Part shown: piece by piece, positions 4,566 through 55,560 of the stretch
Position numbering within the stretch: the stretch's first letter is position 1
Layout of the letters: each line of letters starts with the position of its first letter
Origin: Actinomadura graeca
Lineage (GTDB): Bacteria > Actinomycetota > Actinomycetes > Streptosporangiales > Streptosporangiaceae
Assembly (NCBI RefSeq): GCF_019175365.1
Contig: NZ_CP059572.1
Span: 7,502,001 to 7,566,000, forward strand
Reading direction: 5' to 3'
DNA: 64,000 bases
The notes under the pieces: model-generated
The model's database searches: none
What the model was told of the DNA's origin: nothing
What the model saw: only the letters and a program-made list of their open reading frames with translations
Position numbers and translations under genes: made by a program

Positions 4566-4910
4566 GTGCGAATGCGGGAATCGGCGGACGTGGCGGTGCG
4601 TGACTCCTACGCGGGCCTGCTCGCTTCCGTCCCCGAGCGGACGCGGTGGACGTTCCGCGAGCGGATGCTCGGGCCGCTGGAGGAGTACGACACCAGCCGG
4701 CAGTCCGACCTCGTCCATACACTGGAGGTCTTCCTGGCCTGCTCCGGGTCGTGGAGCCGGAGCGCGACACGGCTGCACGTCCATGTGAACACGCTTCGGT
4801 ACCGGATCCGCAGAATAGAGGCTCTGACAGGCCGGGACCTCGGCACACTAGAGGATCGAGTCGACTTCTTCCTCGCCCTGCGCGCGACGCGCCAGGCGAG
4901 CACCTGGTAG
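4566..4910 (+). pseudogene. Truncated PucR-family regulator (C-terminal helix-turn-helix only)
   Basis: The 114-residue product matches only the C-terminal helix-turn-helix of PucR/CdaR regulators: a leader resembling 'LL.PL..YD', then SATRLHVHVNTLRYRIRRIE near residues 66-86 and a closing 'L.DRVDFFLALRA' helix. Full PucR proteins are several hundred residues with an N-terminal sensing domain that is absent here; only 152 bp separate this ORF from the divergent permease, so nothing larger fits. The DNA-binding part looks intact. It is therefore either a decayed remnant or a minimal DNA-binding protein. GTG 4566 or ATG 4572 could be the start. Its position beside a purine permease agrees with the usual PucR role. 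Confidence 0.6.
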
Positions 4911-4924
4911 GCGGTGGTCAAACG

Positions 4925-6223
4925 ATGGACCGGGAGACACTGGGGCAGCGCATCCGCGCCCTGCGGATCCGGCAGGGCGTGAGCCAGGCGCAGCTCGCCT
5001 TCCCCGAGCTGTCCGACAGCTACATCTCGCTGATCGAGAGCGACAAGCGGGTGCCCGCCCCGAGCGTCGTCGACCTGCTCGCGGCGAAGCTGAACTGCTC
5101 GGCCACGTACCTGGTCAGCGGCGTCAGCGAGGACGTCGTGGACGAGCTGCGCGTCACCCTCGACTACGCCGAGATCGCGCTGCAGAACGGCGCGGCGGCC
5201 GAGGCGCGGGCCCGGTTCGCCGAGGTCCTCGCCAACGCCGACGCGGTGGCGCTGCCGGAGATGCTGCACCAGGCCCGCTGGGGCTACGCGCTCGCGCTGG
5301 AGGCCGCGGGCGAGCTGGAGGAGGCGATCACCGGGCTGCTGGAGCTCACCGAGGAGGCCTCCGCCGAGGCCGACCTCGACCACTGGGCGAAGGTGCACGT
5401 CGCGCTCAGCCGCTGCCTGCGCGAACGCGGCGACATCAGCGCGGGCGTGCAGGCCGCCGAGGGCGCCCTGCGGCACCTCATCGCGACCGGCGCCGACTCC
5501 ACCGACGCCGCCGTGCACCTCGGCGCCGCGCTGCTCGCCGCGTTCATCGAGCGCGGCGACCTCGTCCGCGCCCGGCACCTGGCCGCGCAGCTCGTCGAGC
5601 GCGCCGAGCGGATCGGCACCCCCCGCGCCCGCATGGTCGCGTACTGGGAGGCCGCCTACGTCGCCGAGATCCGCGGCGAGTACGGCGAGGGCGTCACCCT
5701 CGCCGAGCGCGCGCTGATGCTCGCCGGCGACGGCGAGGACCCCCGCAACCTCAACCGGCTCCGCGTCATCTACGCCGGGCTGCTGCTGCGCGCCCGGCCC
5801 GACCAGGCCGCCCGCGCCCGCGAGCTGCTCAACCGGGTGCGCGCCGAGATCAGCGCCAGCTCCGCCGGGGAGATCGACGTCGCCTGGTGCCTGACCGAGC
5901 TCGCCCGCGCCGAGACCGCCCTCGGACGCCCCGCGGAGGCGGTGCGGCTCGCCGAGGAGGCCATCGACCTGCTCGGGGACGCGCCGCGCCGCGCCACCGC
6001 CGGGGCGCTGACCGTGCTCGGCGAGGCGTGCGTCCGGCTCGGCCGGCAGGAGCGCGCCGCCGAGGTCCTCACCCGCGCCGCCACCTGCCTGGAGGAGATG
6101 GAGTCCTCCCGGGAGGCCGCGCAGGCGTGGTTCGACCTCGCCGAAGTGCTCGCGGAGACGGGATCGGCCGGAGAACCCCGCATGGCCGCCTACCGCCGCG
6201 CCCTCACCTGCGTCGGAGTCTGA
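4925..6223 (+). CDS. XRE-family regulator with TPR-like repeats
   Basis: A 432-residue cytoplasmic protein. Residues about 6-65 form an XRE helix-turn-helix (GQRIRALRIRQGVSQAQLA, then SDSYISLIESDKRVPAPSVV). The rest is alpha-helical with repeated A/L/E-rich units about 35-40 residues apart, as in tetratricopeptide arrays that bind peptides or partner proteins. ATG 4925 is used because the HTH begins immediately after it; the preceding Shine-Dalgarno is weak. It lies 14 bp after the PucR remnant on the same strand. The target and ligand are unknown; similar actinomycete proteins act as regulators of development or secondary metabolism. It is followed by a dispersed intergenic repeat. Confidence 0.85.
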   Translation: MDRETLGQRIRALRIRQGVSQAQLAFPELSDSYISLIESDKRVPAPSVVDLLAAKLNCSATYLVSGVSEDVVDELRVTLDYAEIALQNGAAAEARARFAEVLANADAVALPEMLHQARWGYALALEAAGELEEAITGLLELTEEASAEADLDHWAKVHVALSRCLRERGDISAGVQAAEGALRHLIATGADSTDAAVHLGAALLAAFIERGDLVRARHLAAQLVERAERIGTPRARMVAYWEAAYVAEIRGEYGEGVTLAERALMLAGDGEDPRNLNRLRVIYAGLLLRARPDQAARARELLNRVRAEISASSAGEIDVAWCLTELARAETALGRPAEAVRLAEEAIDLLGDAPRRATAGALTVLGEACVRLGRQERAAEVLTRAATCLEEMESSREAAQAWFDLAEVLAETGSAGEPRMAAYRRALTCVGV

Positions 6224-50386: not shown

Positions 50387-51685
50387 TCAGATCCCAGAGG
50401 TCAGCGCCTGCAAATCCCGCGCGGCCGGGAGGGTTCGCGCCTTCTCCGGCAGCACGGAGATGACGCGCCGGGCGTTCGACCTGATCCGCGCGACGCGCCG
50501 TTCCTCAGGAAGCGCGTCGATGATGCCGAGCGCCTGGGCAAGGGCCTGTTCCGGATCGTTTCGCGCGTGGATCACAGGAACATGCAGCTTGAGTTGAACC
50601 GTTTGGTGCTGACCTGACCTGAAGAGAGGACGAGCGGCATCCTGTGCCTCACCGGCGCGCTTCGCATCACCCGCCCATGCGTAGATCTGGCTTTGGACGT
50701 ACCGCAGACGATCTTCGCCCCATTGCCGTCCGGTCGTGGGAAGCTTCGGAAAGAGCGTTTCGACATCACGAATGGCGGCGGTTGCGGCTCGCAGGTCCCC
50801 GGCCGCCGCGTGCGCCTCAGCCTCGACGGCCACCGCGTAGATGAGAGAGTGCGTGGGACGGGTCCCCGCCAGCCGTCGTGCCTCCTGGACGAGTGGGATG
50901 AGGCGGGCCGGATCCTCACGATCATCGGAGAGCCGGGTGGTGACCTCCCAGCTGCGGGAGTACGACGCGAGACTCTGATCTTCGGATTTGTCCGCGAGAG
51001 ACCGGGCCTTGTCCCACCAGCGTCGCGAGTGACGGCGGTCCCCGATCTCCACGAGTCCCCCCGCGATCAGGAACGCGTGCCGGGCGGCCGCGTGGGCCAG
51101 CGCGAGGTCGACGTCGGGCGGCTGGTTCCGGCGAAGGTGGGGCGCGATATCGGCCCAATCCGCCGCGAGGGCCTCCAGCACCACCAGGGGAGGGTCGTGC
51201 ACGTAGCTGGCCACGTGGACGTCGTAGACGTTCTCCCAATCGTCGATCATCCCCCGGGAGACGCTGGCCCCGGGGAGGGACGGCTCGCTGTCGCGCCAGC
51301 CTTGGGAGAGGGCGGCCAGGACCGGGGCAGCGGCGGCGCCCACGGTCAGGGTCGTGGTGTCCTGAAGCAGCTCACGGCGTTTCACATCGTCGTCCCAGAA
51401 GTCGGGATTGCAGATGAACGTCACGGTACCCGCTTCAGTATGGCCCTGGATAGACCGATCCCTGGGATCTGCTTCGACGTTGCGGAGGAGCTCGTCCAAT
51501 TCGTCCAGACTGATCTTTAGTTCCTTGGCGAGTTTAGGACGAATCCAGGGCATAGGGTCGGTTTCGGCGCGCTCCCAGCGGCCGACCGTTGATCGCTCTG
51601 CACCGAGCCGATCGGCCAGTTGCTCTTGGCTGTATCCCACCGATCGTCGGCGCAAGGCGAGCCGTCGCCGCTTTAACGTCATCAT
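50387..51685 (-). CDS. XRE-family regulator with large C-terminal domain, upstream of the small-gene operon
   Basis: 432 residues from ATG 51685 (a second ATG follows). HTH near residues 5-65: RRLALRRRSVGYSQEQLADR, LGAERSTVGRWERAETDPMP. The C-terminal 350 residues are helical with TPR-like repetition (WDDDVKRRELLQDTTTLTVG is a linker; LAHAAARHAFLIAGGLVEIG, then AHAAAGDLRAATAAIRDVET). Actinomycete proteins with this build often stand next to a small regulatory or toxin-like partner. GGAGG precedes the start. It is divergent from five overlapping tiny genes across 259 bp that contain an operator-like pair of palindromes. Confidence 0.85.
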   Translation of the reverse strand: MMTLKRRRLALRRRSVGYSQEQLADRLGAERSTVGRWERAETDPMPWIRPKLAKELKISLDELDELLRNVEADPRDRSIQGHTEAGTVTFICNPDFWDDDVKRRELLQDTTTLTVGAAAAPVLAALSQGWRDSEPSLPGASVSRGMIDDWENVYDVHVASYVHDPPLVVLEALAADWADIAPHLRRNQPPDVDLALAHAAARHAFLIAGGLVEIGDRRHSRRWWDKARSLADKSEDQSLASYSRSWEVTTRLSDDREDPARLIPLVQEARRLAGTRPTHSLIYAVAVEAEAHAAAGDLRAATAAIRDVETLFPKLPTTGRQWGEDRLRYVQSQIYAWAGDAKRAGEAQDAARPLFRSGQHQTVQLKLHVPVIHARNDPEQALAQALGIIDALPEERRVARIRSNARRVISVLPEKARTLPAARDLQALTSGI

Positions 51686-51706
51686 GCCTCCTCGTGCTGG
51701 TCTTTC

Positions 51707-51725
51707 AATGAGACCTCATTTGAGG
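51707..51725. promoter_or_regulatory. Overlapping palindromes, probable XRE operator
   Basis: AATGAG-AC-CTCATT (51707-51720) and CCTCA-TT-TGAGG (51714-51725) overlap, about 20 bp ahead of the XRE start. They are AT-rich compared with their flanks. Their position fits autoregulation by the XRE protein, which might also act on the divergent small-gene operon. Confidence 0.5.
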
Positions 51726-51944
51726 AGTCGGCGCTGGTCAAACCGCAGGATGCCTCAATGTTGCCCTAATGATGCACCGGCCGTGCTCTGGCCCGTGGAC
51801 GTCGTGCCGCGGTTTCGTGGTGTCGCGATCGGATTCCGCCTCCCGGAGGCGCGTGATCGCTGGGAGCCGTTGCGACAAAACGACCCCGGCCCGGTGCGGG
51901 AACACCGGGGGTGCCCGGGGTCTGACCGGAAACGAGGTCCGGCT

Positions 51945-52205
51945 ATGGGCAAGGTACAACAGCCGCCGGGAGCGGACGCCGTCGCGGAGCGGAAGGCGGC
52001 GTTGCGGGAGGAGTTCTCCTCTTGGTCGATCATCTACACCAGTGACACCGGGCGGTGGTGGGCGACGCGGCCCGTCCGGCGCGCGCGGCCGGACGGCTCG
52101 TACGGGGCGGGCGTGGTGACCGATCTGGCGGCCGATACCGCCGAGGAGCTCCGCGAGGAACTGCGCAAGGTCGGCGCCGCCGAGGACGGGAAGGCCGCGC
52201 GGTGA
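51945..52205 (+). CDS. Small protein A of the five-gene operon, 86 aa
   Basis: ATG 51945 with GAGG 8 nt upstream. The core SWSIIYTSDTGRWWATRPVR is followed by VVTDLAADTAEELREELRKV and an acidic/Ala end. It has a tryptophan-rich beta part and a C-terminal helix. No family is named with confidence. Its core TGRWWA ... ADT.EEL...L resembles protein C of this operon (TGRYWA ... AKTVDDLAGQV), so the two may be paralogues. Its stop overlaps the next start (GTGA). Confidence 0.65.
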   Translation: MGKVQQPPGADAVAERKAALREEFSSWSIIYTSDTGRWWATRPVRRARPDGSYGAGVVTDLAADTAEELREELRKVGAAEDGKAAR

Positions 52206-52429
52206 ACAGGCAGGAGGAGGCGCTGCGCGCGCTCGCCGCCGGGCTGGACGGGCGCGGGATCGCGGCCCGGGTGTTCGCCACCAACGTGATCGTCGCAGGT
52301 GAGAACGGGCGCGAGCTGGTGGTCGTCTGCTCGCGCGGGGTGTTCCGCTGGGGGATGGGCGAGGAGATCGGTCCCATCGACGACGTGGACGCCGCCGTGC
52401 GGCACGTCGCCGCCGCGAGCGCGTCATGA
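52202..52429 (+). CDS. Small protein B of the five-gene operon, 75 aa
   Basis: GTG 52202 overlaps the previous stop by 4 bp. Predicted pattern helix-strand-strand-strand-helix: NRQEEALRALAAGLDGRGIA, RVFATNVIVAGENGRELVVV, CSRGVFRWG and DDVDAAVRHVAAAS. No signal peptide, membrane segment or catalytic motif is seen. It is not a named family that I can recognise. Translational coupling suggests that its level is tied to proteins A and C, for example as a complex partner. Confidence 0.65.
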   Translation: MNRQEEALRALAAGLDGRGIAARVFATNVIVAGENGRELVVVCSRGVFRWGMGEEIGPIDDVDAAVRHVAAASAS

Positions 52430-52671
52430 GCGGCACGCCGATCCCGGGCGCCCCTGGCACGCCCGGCACCGTGCCGCTCGGAAGCCGGGTGCGGTACTGG
52501 CACGGCAACGCCACCGGCCGCTACTGGGCCATGCTGCCCTGGCCGTGGAGCGAGCACGGGTACCGCCTGGTCGAGGCCAAGACCGTGGACGACCTGGCCG
52601 GGCAGGTCCGGCACCTGCTAGAGGGCATGACCGTCCGGGACGACGGCATGCCACGGGCCCGGGGCAACTGA
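52426..52671 (+). CDS. Small protein C of the five-gene operon, 81 aa
   Basis: ATG 52426, with its own ATGA overlap. After a Pro/Gly-rich start it reads GSRVRYWHGNATGRYWAMLP, then WPWSEHGYRLVEAKTVDDLA and GQVRHLLEG. The TGRYWA and V-x-A-x-T-x-(D/E)-(D/E)-L pattern parallels protein A. Aromatic-rich strands followed by a helix suggest a small mixed domain. Not recognised as a known family. Confidence 0.65.
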   Translation: MSGTPIPGAPGTPGTVPLGSRVRYWHGNATGRYWAMLPWPWSEHGYRLVEAKTVDDLAGQVRHLLEGMTVRDDGMPRARGN

Positions 52672-52844
52672 TGCGCCGCTCCTATGCCGCTCCCTTGGAG
52701 GATCCGATGGGCGGGTCGTGGACGTGGTGGTGGCTGCTGGGCGGGCCCCGCCACGTCCACCCGATGGCCCGGCCGCCCGCGCGGCGGCGGGAGGACCGCC
52801 CCTCCCGCCGCCGCGCGTCCCGGCCACGACGAGGCGACCGGTGA
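52671..52844 (+). CDS. Small protein D of the five-gene operon, 57 aa
   Basis: Start ATG 52671 shares one base with the previous stop (TGATG). The sequence MRRSYAAPLEDPMGGSWTWW, then WLLGGPRHVHPM, gives way to a very Arg-rich end (RRREDRPSRRRASRPRRGDR). It could be a tiny membrane-associated or nucleic-acid-binding peptide. Composition is extreme, so part of it may be non-functional, but the coupled starts on both sides support translation. Confidence 0.5.
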   Translation: MRRSYAAPLEDPMGGSWTWWWLLGGPRHVHPMARPPARRREDRPSRRRASRPRRGDR

Positions 52845-53047
52845 GCGCGGGCTATGAGCTCGTCGGCGACACCACGATGTTCGTCATGGTGGACGCGGAG
52901 TCGGGTGACGTCGTCGGGGCCGCCTACGCCGAGGAGGGGGATCCGCGCTGGTGGCGCGGGATCCTGCACGGCCGGGTGACCCGCCTGTTCGTCCCGGCGC
53001 ACCTCCCCGACCCGCACCTGGACGTCGCCCGGCGGCTCCAGCGCTAG
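52841..53047 (+). CDS. Small protein E of the five-gene operon, 68 aa
   Basis: GTG 52841 overlaps the stop of D by 4 bp (GTGA). Reads GYELVGDTTMFVMVDAESGD, VVGAAYAEEGDPRWWRGILH, then a short basic segment ending in HLDVARRLQR. The first half looks like a beta sheet, the second a helix. No family is recognised. It is the last gene; a strong terminator starts 4 bp past its stop. Confidence 0.6.
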   Translation: MSAGYELVGDTTMFVMVDAESGDVVGAAYAEEGDPRWWRGILHGRVTRLFVPAHLPDPHLDVARRLQR

Positions 53048-53050
53048 ACC

Positions 53051-53090
53051 CCGTGGCCCCGGGTCCGGATGGGTCCACCCGGGGCCACGG
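53051..53090 (+). terminator. Terminator of the five-gene operon
   Basis: CCGTGGCCCCGGGT (53051-53064) and ACCCGGGGCCACGG (53077-53090) form a perfect 14-bp stem with a 12-nt loop, 4 bp after the last stop codon. A very strong hairpin that isolates the micro-operon from the CRISPR leader. Confidence 0.85.
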
Positions 53091-53482
53091 CATACTTCTT
53101 CGAACCGGTCGCATACTGCTGGCCAGCCGCCCGCCGACGTGGTGCACTCCCGAGTCATGGAGGCCGAGCGGCTCGGCGCGTACCGGCGGCGCAATCACCG
53201 GACGTCCGTCCGCCCCCGGTTCCGCCCCGGACGCGCTACACGACGGATCTCCACCGAGCCAGGGTGTGTGGCCGATCCTCGTCTCAGGGACGGCCCAATT
53301 GGGGCCGCCCTGCCGCGGCAAGATCCTGATTTCGCAGACCCGGGGCCGAGCCCAGATGATGATCATGACCCCTCGGCAAGAGTTGACCAGTACGCTTTGT
53401 TGCCTGCTCGTCCGAGGCCTCGGAGCCTGGCAAAGTGCTTCAAAACAACACGATCGTTCGATGAACCCGCAGGTCAGTAAGA
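53091..53482 (+). other. Probable CRISPR leader and preceding non-coding DNA
   Basis: About 390 bp without a supported gene. The last 130 bp are AT-richer than the surroundings (CAAAACAACACGATCG, GATGATGATCATG) and end CCCGCAGGTCAGTAAGA directly at the first repeat. The degenerate repeats at the other end of the array put the leader here. TTGACC at 53383 is a possible -35 element; no matching -10 is clear. Confidence 0.55.
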
Positions 53483-55155
53483 GTGCTCCCGCACACGCGG
53501 GGATGGTCCCGCGCTGCACCAGCTCGGCGGGCTGTGGTGGCTGTGCTCCCCGCACACGCGGGGATGGTCCCTCGGGGGTGCCGGTACGGGTGGTGCGGTA
53601 TTCGTGCTCCCCGCACACGCGGGGATGGTCCCTGGATGCGCAACGACGTCTCGCTCGTGGTGAAGTGCTCCCCGCACACGCGGGGATGGTCCCACTCCAC
53701 ACCACCTCACCGTCCGGCCCCTCGGGTGCTCCCCGCACACGCGGGGATGGTCCCGTGTCCGGCGTGGTCGACGGGCGGCGGGACCGGTGCTCCCCGCCTA
53801 CGCGGGGATGGTCCCACAACGGTGATCATTGGGCGACATCCTGGGATGTGCTCCCCGCCCACGCGGGGATGGTCCCATCCACCCCGAGATCCACGTCGAC
53901 CCCGGTCCGTGCTCCCCGCACACGCGGGGATGGTCCCTCGAACGGGAGCTGGGCCTCCGGTGAGTGACCGTGTTCCCCGCACACGCGGGGATGGTCCCGC
54001 GTAGACCACGACGATCGCGATCATTGGGCGGCGCTCCCCGTACACGCGGGGATGGTCCCCCGCCGACCAGAGCCGTCAGCAGCGGCGGCGGGTGCTCCCG
54101 CCCACGCGGGGATGGTCCCTATCGCTTCACCGCAGCTGGCCGGGACATGCTGTGCTCCCCGCCCACGCGGGGATGGTCCCGTGCGCAGGACGGCCCGCGC
54201 CACGTCGATGGTGTGCTCCCCGCCCACGCGGGGATGGTCCCCTGGCCTTCCACCTGGCCGACCCTGACCTGGCGTGCTCCCCGCCCACGCGGGGATGGTC
54301 CCTCCAGGACGGCGGGCTGCGCCAGGTAGGTCCAGTGCTCCCCGCCCACGCGGGGATGGTCCCCTGGCCCGGCTCCGCTGACCGGAGCCCGATCAGTGCT
54401 CCCGGCGCACGCGGGGATGGTCCCCCCTGCAATCTGCCCAAGCGGGGCGGGGACGAGTGCTCCCCGCGCACGCGGGGATGGTCCCGAGGTCAGGCTGTCC
54501 GGTCAGGGCGTCGGCAAGTGCTCCCCGCGCACGCGGGGATGGTCCGGCGTCCGACTTGATCTAGCTCTGACCTGCGCAGTGTTCCCCGCGCGCGCGGGGA
54601 ACGTCCCCTCGCCACGACCTTCGTGCACGTCGTGCAGGCGTGCTCCCCGCGCACGCGGGGATGGTCCCTCCTCGCGTACGGGCTACCCGATCGCGGCATC
54701 GTGCTCCCCGCGCACGCAGGGATGGTCCCCCAAAGGCGCCGACCATGGAGCGCGTCTACGAGTGCTCCCCGCGCACACGGGGATGGTCCCTCACAGAGAA
54801 GAAGGACAAGCCGACCGGCCAGGTGCTCCCCGCGCACGCGGGGATGGTCCCCGCCCACCCGTCTCGCGCGGGCGCCGCAGGGCGTGCTCCCCGCCCACGC
54901 GGGGATGGTCCCGGCGACGCACCCGCCTTAAAAGCGGGCTCACCGTGCTCCTCGCTCACGCTGGGATAATCTCGGCACCCGTAACGCCACCCCGTCCATG
55001 CTCAAGTGCTCCCCGCCAAGCGGGGATGGTCCCGAGATCGTCCACGGCCGCCGCGAGGTCGTCTGGTGCTCCCCGCGCACGCGGGGATGGTCCGCCGGTC
55101 GGGATCAGCGCCTGGCCGAGTGAGACGTGCTCCCCATGTACGCGGGGATGGTCCG
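53483..55155 (+). CRISPR. Type I-E CRISPR array, 28 repeats and 27 spacers
   Basis: Repeats of 29 nt begin GTGCTCCCCG, have a variable loop, and end CGGGGATGGTCCC; spacers are 32 nt, giving a 61-nt period. Repeat starts: 53483, 53543, 53604, 53665, 53726, 53787, 53848, 53909, 53970, 54031, 54092, 54152, 54213, 54274, 54335, 54396, 54457, 54518, 54579, 54640, 54701, 54762, 54823, 54884, 54945, 55006, 55066 and 55127. Repeats 1, 11 and 26 are 28 nt. The last four (54945 onward) include the most divergent ones, consistent with a leader on the left and a trailer on the right. The repeat class is that of Cas3/Cascade I-E systems; no cas gene is in this window. Stem-forming arms CCCCG/CGGGG make the crRNA handle. 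Confidence 0.97.
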
Positions 55156-55230: not shown

Positions 55231-55560
55231 GAGACCTGCTGACGAATGCGTGGGGACAGCAGCTTCCGCTCTGGACGCTAGAACGTCAGATGCGAAGCGT
55301 CAGGGCGAGCGTGCGTGCTGACGCGGCGAAGGCGCGCAAGAAGGACAAGGACGCGGACGTGACGGACATCCCCGCGGACTTCCGCCTTCACGACCTGCGG
55401 CACTACTTCGCGTCGCTGTTGATCGCGCCGGGTGCCGACGTGAAGACCGTCCAGGCGCCTCTACGGCACGCGTCGGCCAAGACGACGCTGGACATCTACG
55501 CGCATCCGTGACGAGTCGACCCGCGCGGCAGTCGACGCGGTTCTTGTGGCTCGCGCCTAA
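55231..55560 (+). pseudogene. C-terminal remnant of a tyrosine recombinase (phage-type integrase)
   Basis: Readable from about 55231 (LLTNAWGQQLPLWTLERQMR). It includes the catalytic box LHDLRHYFASLLIAPGADVK with the H-x-x-R pair, the second His in LRHASAKTTLDIYAHP, and Tyr in DIYAHP. The frame stops at 55509-55511, but the normal end continues in another frame from 55510 as DESTRAAVDAVLVARA to TAA 55560, so a small deletion near 55505 has removed the segment after HP. The N-terminal two thirds are absent. It abuts the CRISPR trailer and ends 18 bp before the glnA1 terminator, and marks an old insertion boundary. Confidence 0.85.

Follow-up and report, generated by a model that had tools for sequence, protein, structure and literature searches.

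A regulator-linked small-protein cassette of Actinomadura with a predicted scr4677-like antisense RNA gene over its ribosome-binding site

Background

In type I toxin-antitoxin systems the ribosome-binding site of a small open reading frame is covered by a cis-antisense RNA. Another antisense RNA at the start of a gene is scr4677 of Streptomyces coelicolor, which is made from the opposite strand immediately ahead of SCO4676 and has been shown on northern blots (PMC3896431). Altered levels of scr4677 in Streptomyces affected the SCO4676 transcripts only subtly and produced no reproducible phenotype (PMC3896431).

The second group of related systems is defined by its proteins. The WhiJ/BldB (DUF397)/AbaA clusters, including iosA-whiJ9-bldB9 of Streptomyces, consist of an XRE regulator gene and small genes, as does the locus described here, and a single genome likewise harbours many paralogues of them; the binding site of WhiJ9 lies between whiJ9 and iosA, and the sections of the source available to us describe no antisense RNA (PMC10294661). 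In the XRE-DUF397 pairs, for example Scr1/Scr2, the XRE gene also adjoins a short open reading frame.

Here we describe a block of genes in a stretch of 64,000 nucleotides from Actinomadura graeca (contig NZ_CP059572.1; hereafter the window), which resembles both groups and differs from each of them.

Results and Discussion

General features of the block

The features of the block and its surroundings are compiled in Table 1. The regulator gene is divergent from an operon of five small genes, designated A to E. Its product exceeded the cut-off of the NsdA-family model NF053720 (86.5 bits against 75, residues 5-426) and matched Pfam HTH_3 with 33.6 bits (cut-off 23), so that its classification as an XRE/TPR regulator in a preliminary description of this DNA was correct. 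The two overlapping palindromes which that description had noticed ahead of the regulator start were found as AATGAG-AC-CTCATT (51707-51720) and CCTCA-TT-TGAGG (51714-51725). They overlap the promoter-like site of the regulator gene and may represent an operator for its autoregulation. At L062, the locus with the closest regulator match seen (E 8e-86), the repeat CCTCA-N0-4-TGAGG was absent from the intergenic region.

Table 1. Features of the cassette and of the adjoining DNA (positions in the window)
Feature	Position	Strand	Basis
XRE/TPR transcription regulator, 432 aa, NsdA family	50387..51685	-	NCBIfam NF053720 and Pfam HTH_3
Sigma-70-like promoter candidate of the XRE gene	51681..51708	-	Consensus scan, 9/12 against 0.1 expected
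Two overlapping inverted repeats, candidate operator	51707..51725	.	Palindromes 51707-51720 and 51714-51725
Predicted antisense small RNA gene, about 71 nt, scr4677-like; complement spans the leader and ribosome-binding site of A	51874..51944	-	Model R1, fold, strand tests
U-rich tail GUUUUGUC after P1, terminator-like	51874..51881	-	Terminator scan
Hairpin P1 (51915-51922/51882-51889) and inner hairpin P1a (51902-51909/51890-51897)	51882..51922	-	Covariation, fold
Hairpin P2, arms 51938-51943 and 51925-51930	51925..51943	-	Covariation, fold
Putative antisense -10 box TACCTT, in codons 3-4 of A	51951..51956	-	TAnnnT box analysis
Gene A, 86 aa, predicted alpha-beta-beta-beta-alpha fold	51945..52205	+	ORF, homologue search, structure prediction
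Gene B, 75 aa, equivalent to the second half of B proteins of about 140 aa	52202..52429	+	ORF, alignment
Gene C, 81 aa, distant relative of A	52426..52671	+	ORF, hhalign
Gene D, 57 aa, conserved core WTWWWLL	52671..52844	+	ORF, peptide conservation
Gene E, 68 aa, predicted five strands and a helix	52841..53047	+	ORF, structure prediction
14-bp hairpin after the operon, no T-run	53051..53090	+	Perfect inverted repeat 53051-53064/53077-53090
CRISPR array, repeats of about 29 nt of the GTGCTCCCCGC..GCGGGGATGGTCCC kind	53480-55155		16 matches to one repeat pattern
Integrase-like C-terminal fragment, between array and glnA	55311-55511		ORF list

Most of what the preliminary description had said about the operon also held. 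The coordinates confirmed five overlapping genes of 57-86 codons, the successive overlaps being 4, 4, 1 and 4 bp. A perfect 14-bp inverted repeat does follow the operon, 3 bp past the stop codon of E rather than 4 bp as described; it has no T-run and was not listed by the terminator scan. In accordance with the statement that none of the five proteins belongs to a nameable family, no Pfam or NCBIfam family reached its cut-off with A-E. The kinship proposed between A and C was supported by hhalign (probability 76%, E 2.3e-5). For coding-type substitution patterns, an admittedly crude test gave a signal that was clear for A and E and weak for B and C. Amino-acid changes stayed below the random-placement expectation in all nine pairs tested, although under every simulation in only some of them. 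Codon usage was coding-like for A, B, C and E (scores 26.6 to 33.6) and not for D (-2.0). Since the peptide core WTWWWLL..PRH..P is conserved in five loci, the window included, D is probably a gene despite its codon usage.

The N-terminal domain found in full-length B proteins is similar to A as well (93%, E 3.5e-7). This domain is missing from the B protein of the window, and 2 of the 13 aligned B rows are without it. No alignment was found between C and B, and A and E could barely be aligned. Structure prediction gave models of A (pLDDT 75) and E (pLDDT 93), for which no convincing structural relatives were detected; the model of A was set against the HPF/RaiA-like fold.

Distribution of the cassette and exchange of regulators

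The A family is a multi-copy family with 10 matches in the genome of A. graeca, counting the copy in the window. At E <= 0.001 matches occurred in 63 of 99 genomes, namely in all 60 genomes of Actinomadura and, weakly, in 3 of the 39 outside the genus. Among the matches listed (79 of 193 loci), relatives were also present in Nonomuraea, Streptosporangium, Microbispora and others. Some copies within the genus (L046, L076, L077 and L183) are solitary and adjoin the gene of a GntR regulator.

We compared the neighbourhoods of 81 loci (the 80 best-ranked A matches and the window), 77 of which had a usable block. The nearest upstream gene within 1 kb encoded an XRE helix-turn-helix in 56 of 72 cases; the same held for 2 of 63 nearest downstream genes and for 18 of 468 other genes. 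Thirty-three of the 56 upstream XRE genes were divergent and 23 were on the same strand. The families represented among the 72 upstream proteins were NsdA_fam_reg (36), HTH_31 (35), HTH_3 (27) and DUF5753 (2), and XRE was absent from the best 25 of the 76 downstream families listed. The order A-B-C-E was found in the window, L039, L054 and L065, in all four with D between C and E, while L053 had A-B-C-D with no E detected. Recurrence beside an XRE gene in related genomes, which the preliminary description had named as a check, was thus found. Cassettes of this kind, each an XRE/TPR regulator gene with an adjoining small-protein operon, occupy many loci, and the block is one of the copies.

A linkage as tight as that between A and the XRE genes might indicate a conventional partner pair, either a type II toxin-antitoxin system or an arrangement of the XRE-DUF397 kind, with A-E binding the regulator. 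XRE-DUF397 pairs have indeed been proposed as toxin-antitoxin systems, yet according to the available sections of the same paper fourteen DUF397 proteins were non-toxic on overexpression (PMC10364602). The regulators differ as well: those found here are mostly of the NsdA-family/TPR type (36/72) and rarely of the DUF5753 type (2/72). We regard a partner pair as unlikely. In 56 pairs the tree distances of A and of the regulators showed no correlation (Mantel r 0.01, a value reached in 746 of 2000 shuffles), with r ranging from -0.36 to 0.29 within single genomes. Moreover, A. rubrisoli has near-identical A-B-C operons next to different regulators. Such a mismatch argues against co-evolving specific pairs and would still be compatible with binding through a conserved surface. 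We conclude from it that regulators have been swapped, and it argues for the small proteins as a shared output rather than as partners of one specific regulator.

A conserved element over the ribosome-binding site of A

Nothing else in the block is as informative as a conserved element of about 70 nt (51874-51956) that the preliminary description had overlooked. The DNA upstream of A was conserved between copies located beside different regulators. A regular expression detected 15 distinct copies of the element in the loci at hand and none in the reversed sequence. When 16 copies were aligned on a structure of 19 pairs, both-side changes were seen in 15 cells (shuffled mean 6.4, 0/500), 87.8% of the cells were paired (at most 60.8% in slid controls), and RNAalifold recovered 16 of the pairs unaided. 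Searches were made with a model of the element, R1, whose 101 matches in 100 loci gave 100 distinct rows with 116 covarying cells, compared with 32.2 after shuffling (0/500) and at most 25 in slid controls; unlike independent evidence, this larger alignment had been fitted to the model. On the mRNA strand the loop of P2 contains the Shine-Dalgarno sequence GAGG.

R1 matched the window once (51875-51950, 83.6 bits), with no second copy at E <= 0.1. In the whole genome 10 copies reached E <= 7e-5 and an eleventh was weak. Four strong copies and one weak copy preceded A matches, so that some of the 10 A operons are without the element. Other operons of this genome are preceded by it too (L204, L205 and L206), and the first open reading frame of L204 resembles, judged by eye, a HATPase (AbaA-like) protein. 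In L049 two leader-like elements (4865-4937 and 4953-5041) stand in tandem before one A gene.

Of 65 genomes of the genus, 61 contained the element at E <= 1e-3, with up to 14 copies each. Of 298 genomes sampled from the family, 78 had it, and 42 of these 78 lie outside the genus; as the sequences are related, these and the following counts are not independent events. The neighbourhoods of 99 of the 101 matches were evaluated, the weak second matches in L270 and L275 being left out. The element abutted the start codon of an open reading frame of at least 30 aa in 98 of the 99, and 96 of these 98 had a Shine-Dalgarno-like motif in the tested stretch. A regulator gene was found no more than 1.2 kb upstream in 87/99 cases within the genus (73 divergent) and in 14/20 outside it. 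The first gene after the element was B in 23 of 98 cases, A in 20, C in 8 and E in one, the remaining 46 lying outside the A-E assignments; outside the genus (n=17) it was C in 4 cases and had no A-E assignment in 13. In four loci from outside the genus (L306, L311, L312 and L313) the element precedes genes for proteins with CRWCGHPPYAHD-like or related motifs, again judged by eye, which possibly stem from mobile elements. Near-identical RNA modules are thus attached to different operons with unrelated regulators, and it looks as if the RNA module were the constant component of the cassette and the regulator the one that is exchanged.

Which strand carries the RNA

Because the element ends at the start codon, its helices covary and P2 encloses the Shine-Dalgarno sequence, it might be taken for a structured 5' leader which acts on the mRNA strand and controls translation in the manner of a riboswitch or a protein-binding leader. 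We hold this to be rather improbable, since several properties of the element point to the other strand. An A-C mismatch on the sense strand corresponds to a G-U wobble on the antisense strand, and an excess of A-C therefore favours the latter. Over all pairs there were 74 A-C mismatches against 18 sense G-U pairs. In non-redundant rows, restricted to P1 and P2 because the inner hairpin P1a is poorly aligned, A-C/C-A outnumbered G-U/U-G by 25 to 9 (20 against 5 when rows were counted), and a second alignment gave 16 to 7. If the mRNA were the active strand, unpaired A-C combinations would thus exceed G-U pairs by about 3:1.

The predicted folds point in the same direction. In the window, the covarying structure was also the fold obtained for the antisense strand (-39.5 kcal/mol, z -3.35, 0/200 shuffles), whereas the sense strand, taken as a slightly longer piece, reached a z of only -0.88 with a different fold. 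Among 119 elements the antisense z was lower in 109, although the antisense energy was lower in only 89. At least four U residues within the 8 nt after P1 were counted in 81/119 elements on the antisense strand and in none on the sense strand. In the window, the minus-strand hairpin of the element was the only terminator-like site between 51600 and 53150.

A leader would also leave unexplained the antisense TAnnnT box and the A-rich start. Of 66 non-redundant copies, 58 had the box at +7 or +8, within codons 3-5 of the first gene, and 60 had it somewhere in +1..+24, against 2/66 and 0/66 in two control windows of equal length. Outside the genus the figures were 13/16 at +7/+8 and 16/16 within +1..+24. 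A TAnnnT box at +7 imposes the rare valine codon GTA on the gene: GTA was codon 4 in 28 of the 34 copies with a box at +7, against 15 of 730 valine codons in other places. The box was absent from all 12 A genes that had no R1 match (E <= 1) ahead of them and present in one of the three with weak R1 matches (L041, L070 and L075). No -35 box was recognised upstream of the antisense -10 box in the copies analysed. Mismatch bias, fold, U-rich tail and TAnnnT box together favour the interpretation of the element as an antisense small-RNA gene.

The antisense hairpin with its U-rich tail, and the 73 of 99 regulators that are divergent, would also suit a mere terminator or insulator which shields the regulator gene from transcription coming from the side of the small genes and gives rise to no discrete small RNA. 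We think this improbable, since such a device would explain neither P2 nor the fixed place of the TAnnnT box, and the element is also found where the upstream regulator is on the same strand.

The neighbouring CRISPR array

The CRISPR array reported next to the block does exist. A genes adjoin glnA in two other genomes (L058 and L193), so that the flank of glnA looks like a recurrent site for such loci. The defence role considered in the preliminary description was not borne out, and a defence module tied to the array is very improbable: CRISPR adjacency is confined to this window, both other glnA-side loci are without a CRISPR repeat, and in PADLOC (2023 library) A-E had no match at E <= 0.01 while the regulator matched over its helix-turn-helix region only. 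The adjacency looks incidental.

Comparison with scr4677 and other systems

The predicted RNA would share with scr4677 (RF02673) its antisense orientation, its location at the start of the downstream gene and a length of about 70 nt, and the core CGGCCCC..GGGCCUGACC is common to the Rfam alignment and the element. However, Rfam gave no match at the element in the window (51600-53200) and RF02673 none in the genome, and all 23 loci scanned, as well as the window piece, stayed below the RF02673 cut-off of 41 bits. The sub-cut-off scores on elements were 22.7 (L232), 18.0 (L297) and 36.9 bits (L328). L328, a match of model R2 in a class-level relative, has TAGGCT-GCGCAT at the same place in a TAnnnT-N6 layout, followed by the hairpin and a GUCGUUUU tail. 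Given a similar layout and scores that are always below the cut-off, we call the element scr4677-like and keep it out of RF02673. At L328 (1512-1767) the match of the Rfam model runs the same way as the downstream gene, against the strand that PMC3896431 assigns to the small RNA.

There are further differences. While scr4677 has been described as a locus beside SCO4676, an HTH gene, the element occurs up to 14 times in one genome, ahead of small genes of various kinds; its first gene here is A, which is not of the SCO4676 type, and the regulator is of the XRE/TPR type. A full-text literature search, whose coverage excluded most subscription journals, found no multi-copy family of this kind.

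The WhiJ/BldB/AbaA clusters differ by their DUF397 partner: DUF397 (PF04149) was not detected among the matches of A-E at E <= 1 nor among 100 members of the A family at E <= 0.1. The predicted position of the antisense RNA over a ribosome-binding site matches that of type I toxin-antitoxin systems. Their toxins, however, are small hydrophobic proteins, whereas A-E have no strongly hydrophobic stretch (highest 19-residue Kyte-Doolittle mean 1.05) and form an operon of several proteins.

A model for the cassette

We consider it probable that the block is a regulator-linked small-protein cassette in which an scr4677-like antisense small-RNA gene of about 70 nt lies over the ribosome-binding site and represses the operon. 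RNA polymerase would start the antisense RNA near the start codon of A, from a -10 box in codons 3-4, transcribe P2 and then P1/P1a, and terminate some 71 nt upstream, in the U-rich tail. The product would be fully complementary to the leader of A, the Shine-Dalgarno sequence and the edge of the start codon. With such complementarity, either pairing or the collision of the two transcriptions could keep the small-protein operon down. The regulator would set the transcription of the operon and, via the palindromes, probably its own. Judging from the analogous WhiJ/BldB/AbaA and iosA loci of Streptomyces, the likeliest role of A-E would be in developmental or metabolic control.

A wider proposal can be made only tentatively, and we would give it less than even chances. 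The element could be a portable antisense-RNA lock of Actinomadura and its relatives, with its promoter in the first codons and hence a shared N-terminal tag on unrelated proteins, which has been copied onto about 10 regulator-linked operons per genome while the regulators were swapped. As the modules are nearly identical, the RNAs might act in trans across loci as one network.

Conclusions

If this interpretation is correct, scr4677, so far a lone and poorly understood small RNA, would be a member of a large family of actinomycete antisense RNAs which is attached to a set of XRE-regulator/small-protein loci. The many copies would provide natural replicates for testing the function of scr4677, and the first few residues that unrelated small proteins have in common would be explained by an antisense promoter inside their codons. 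It would also add an RNA layer to regulator clusters that are thought to steer development and antibiotic production.
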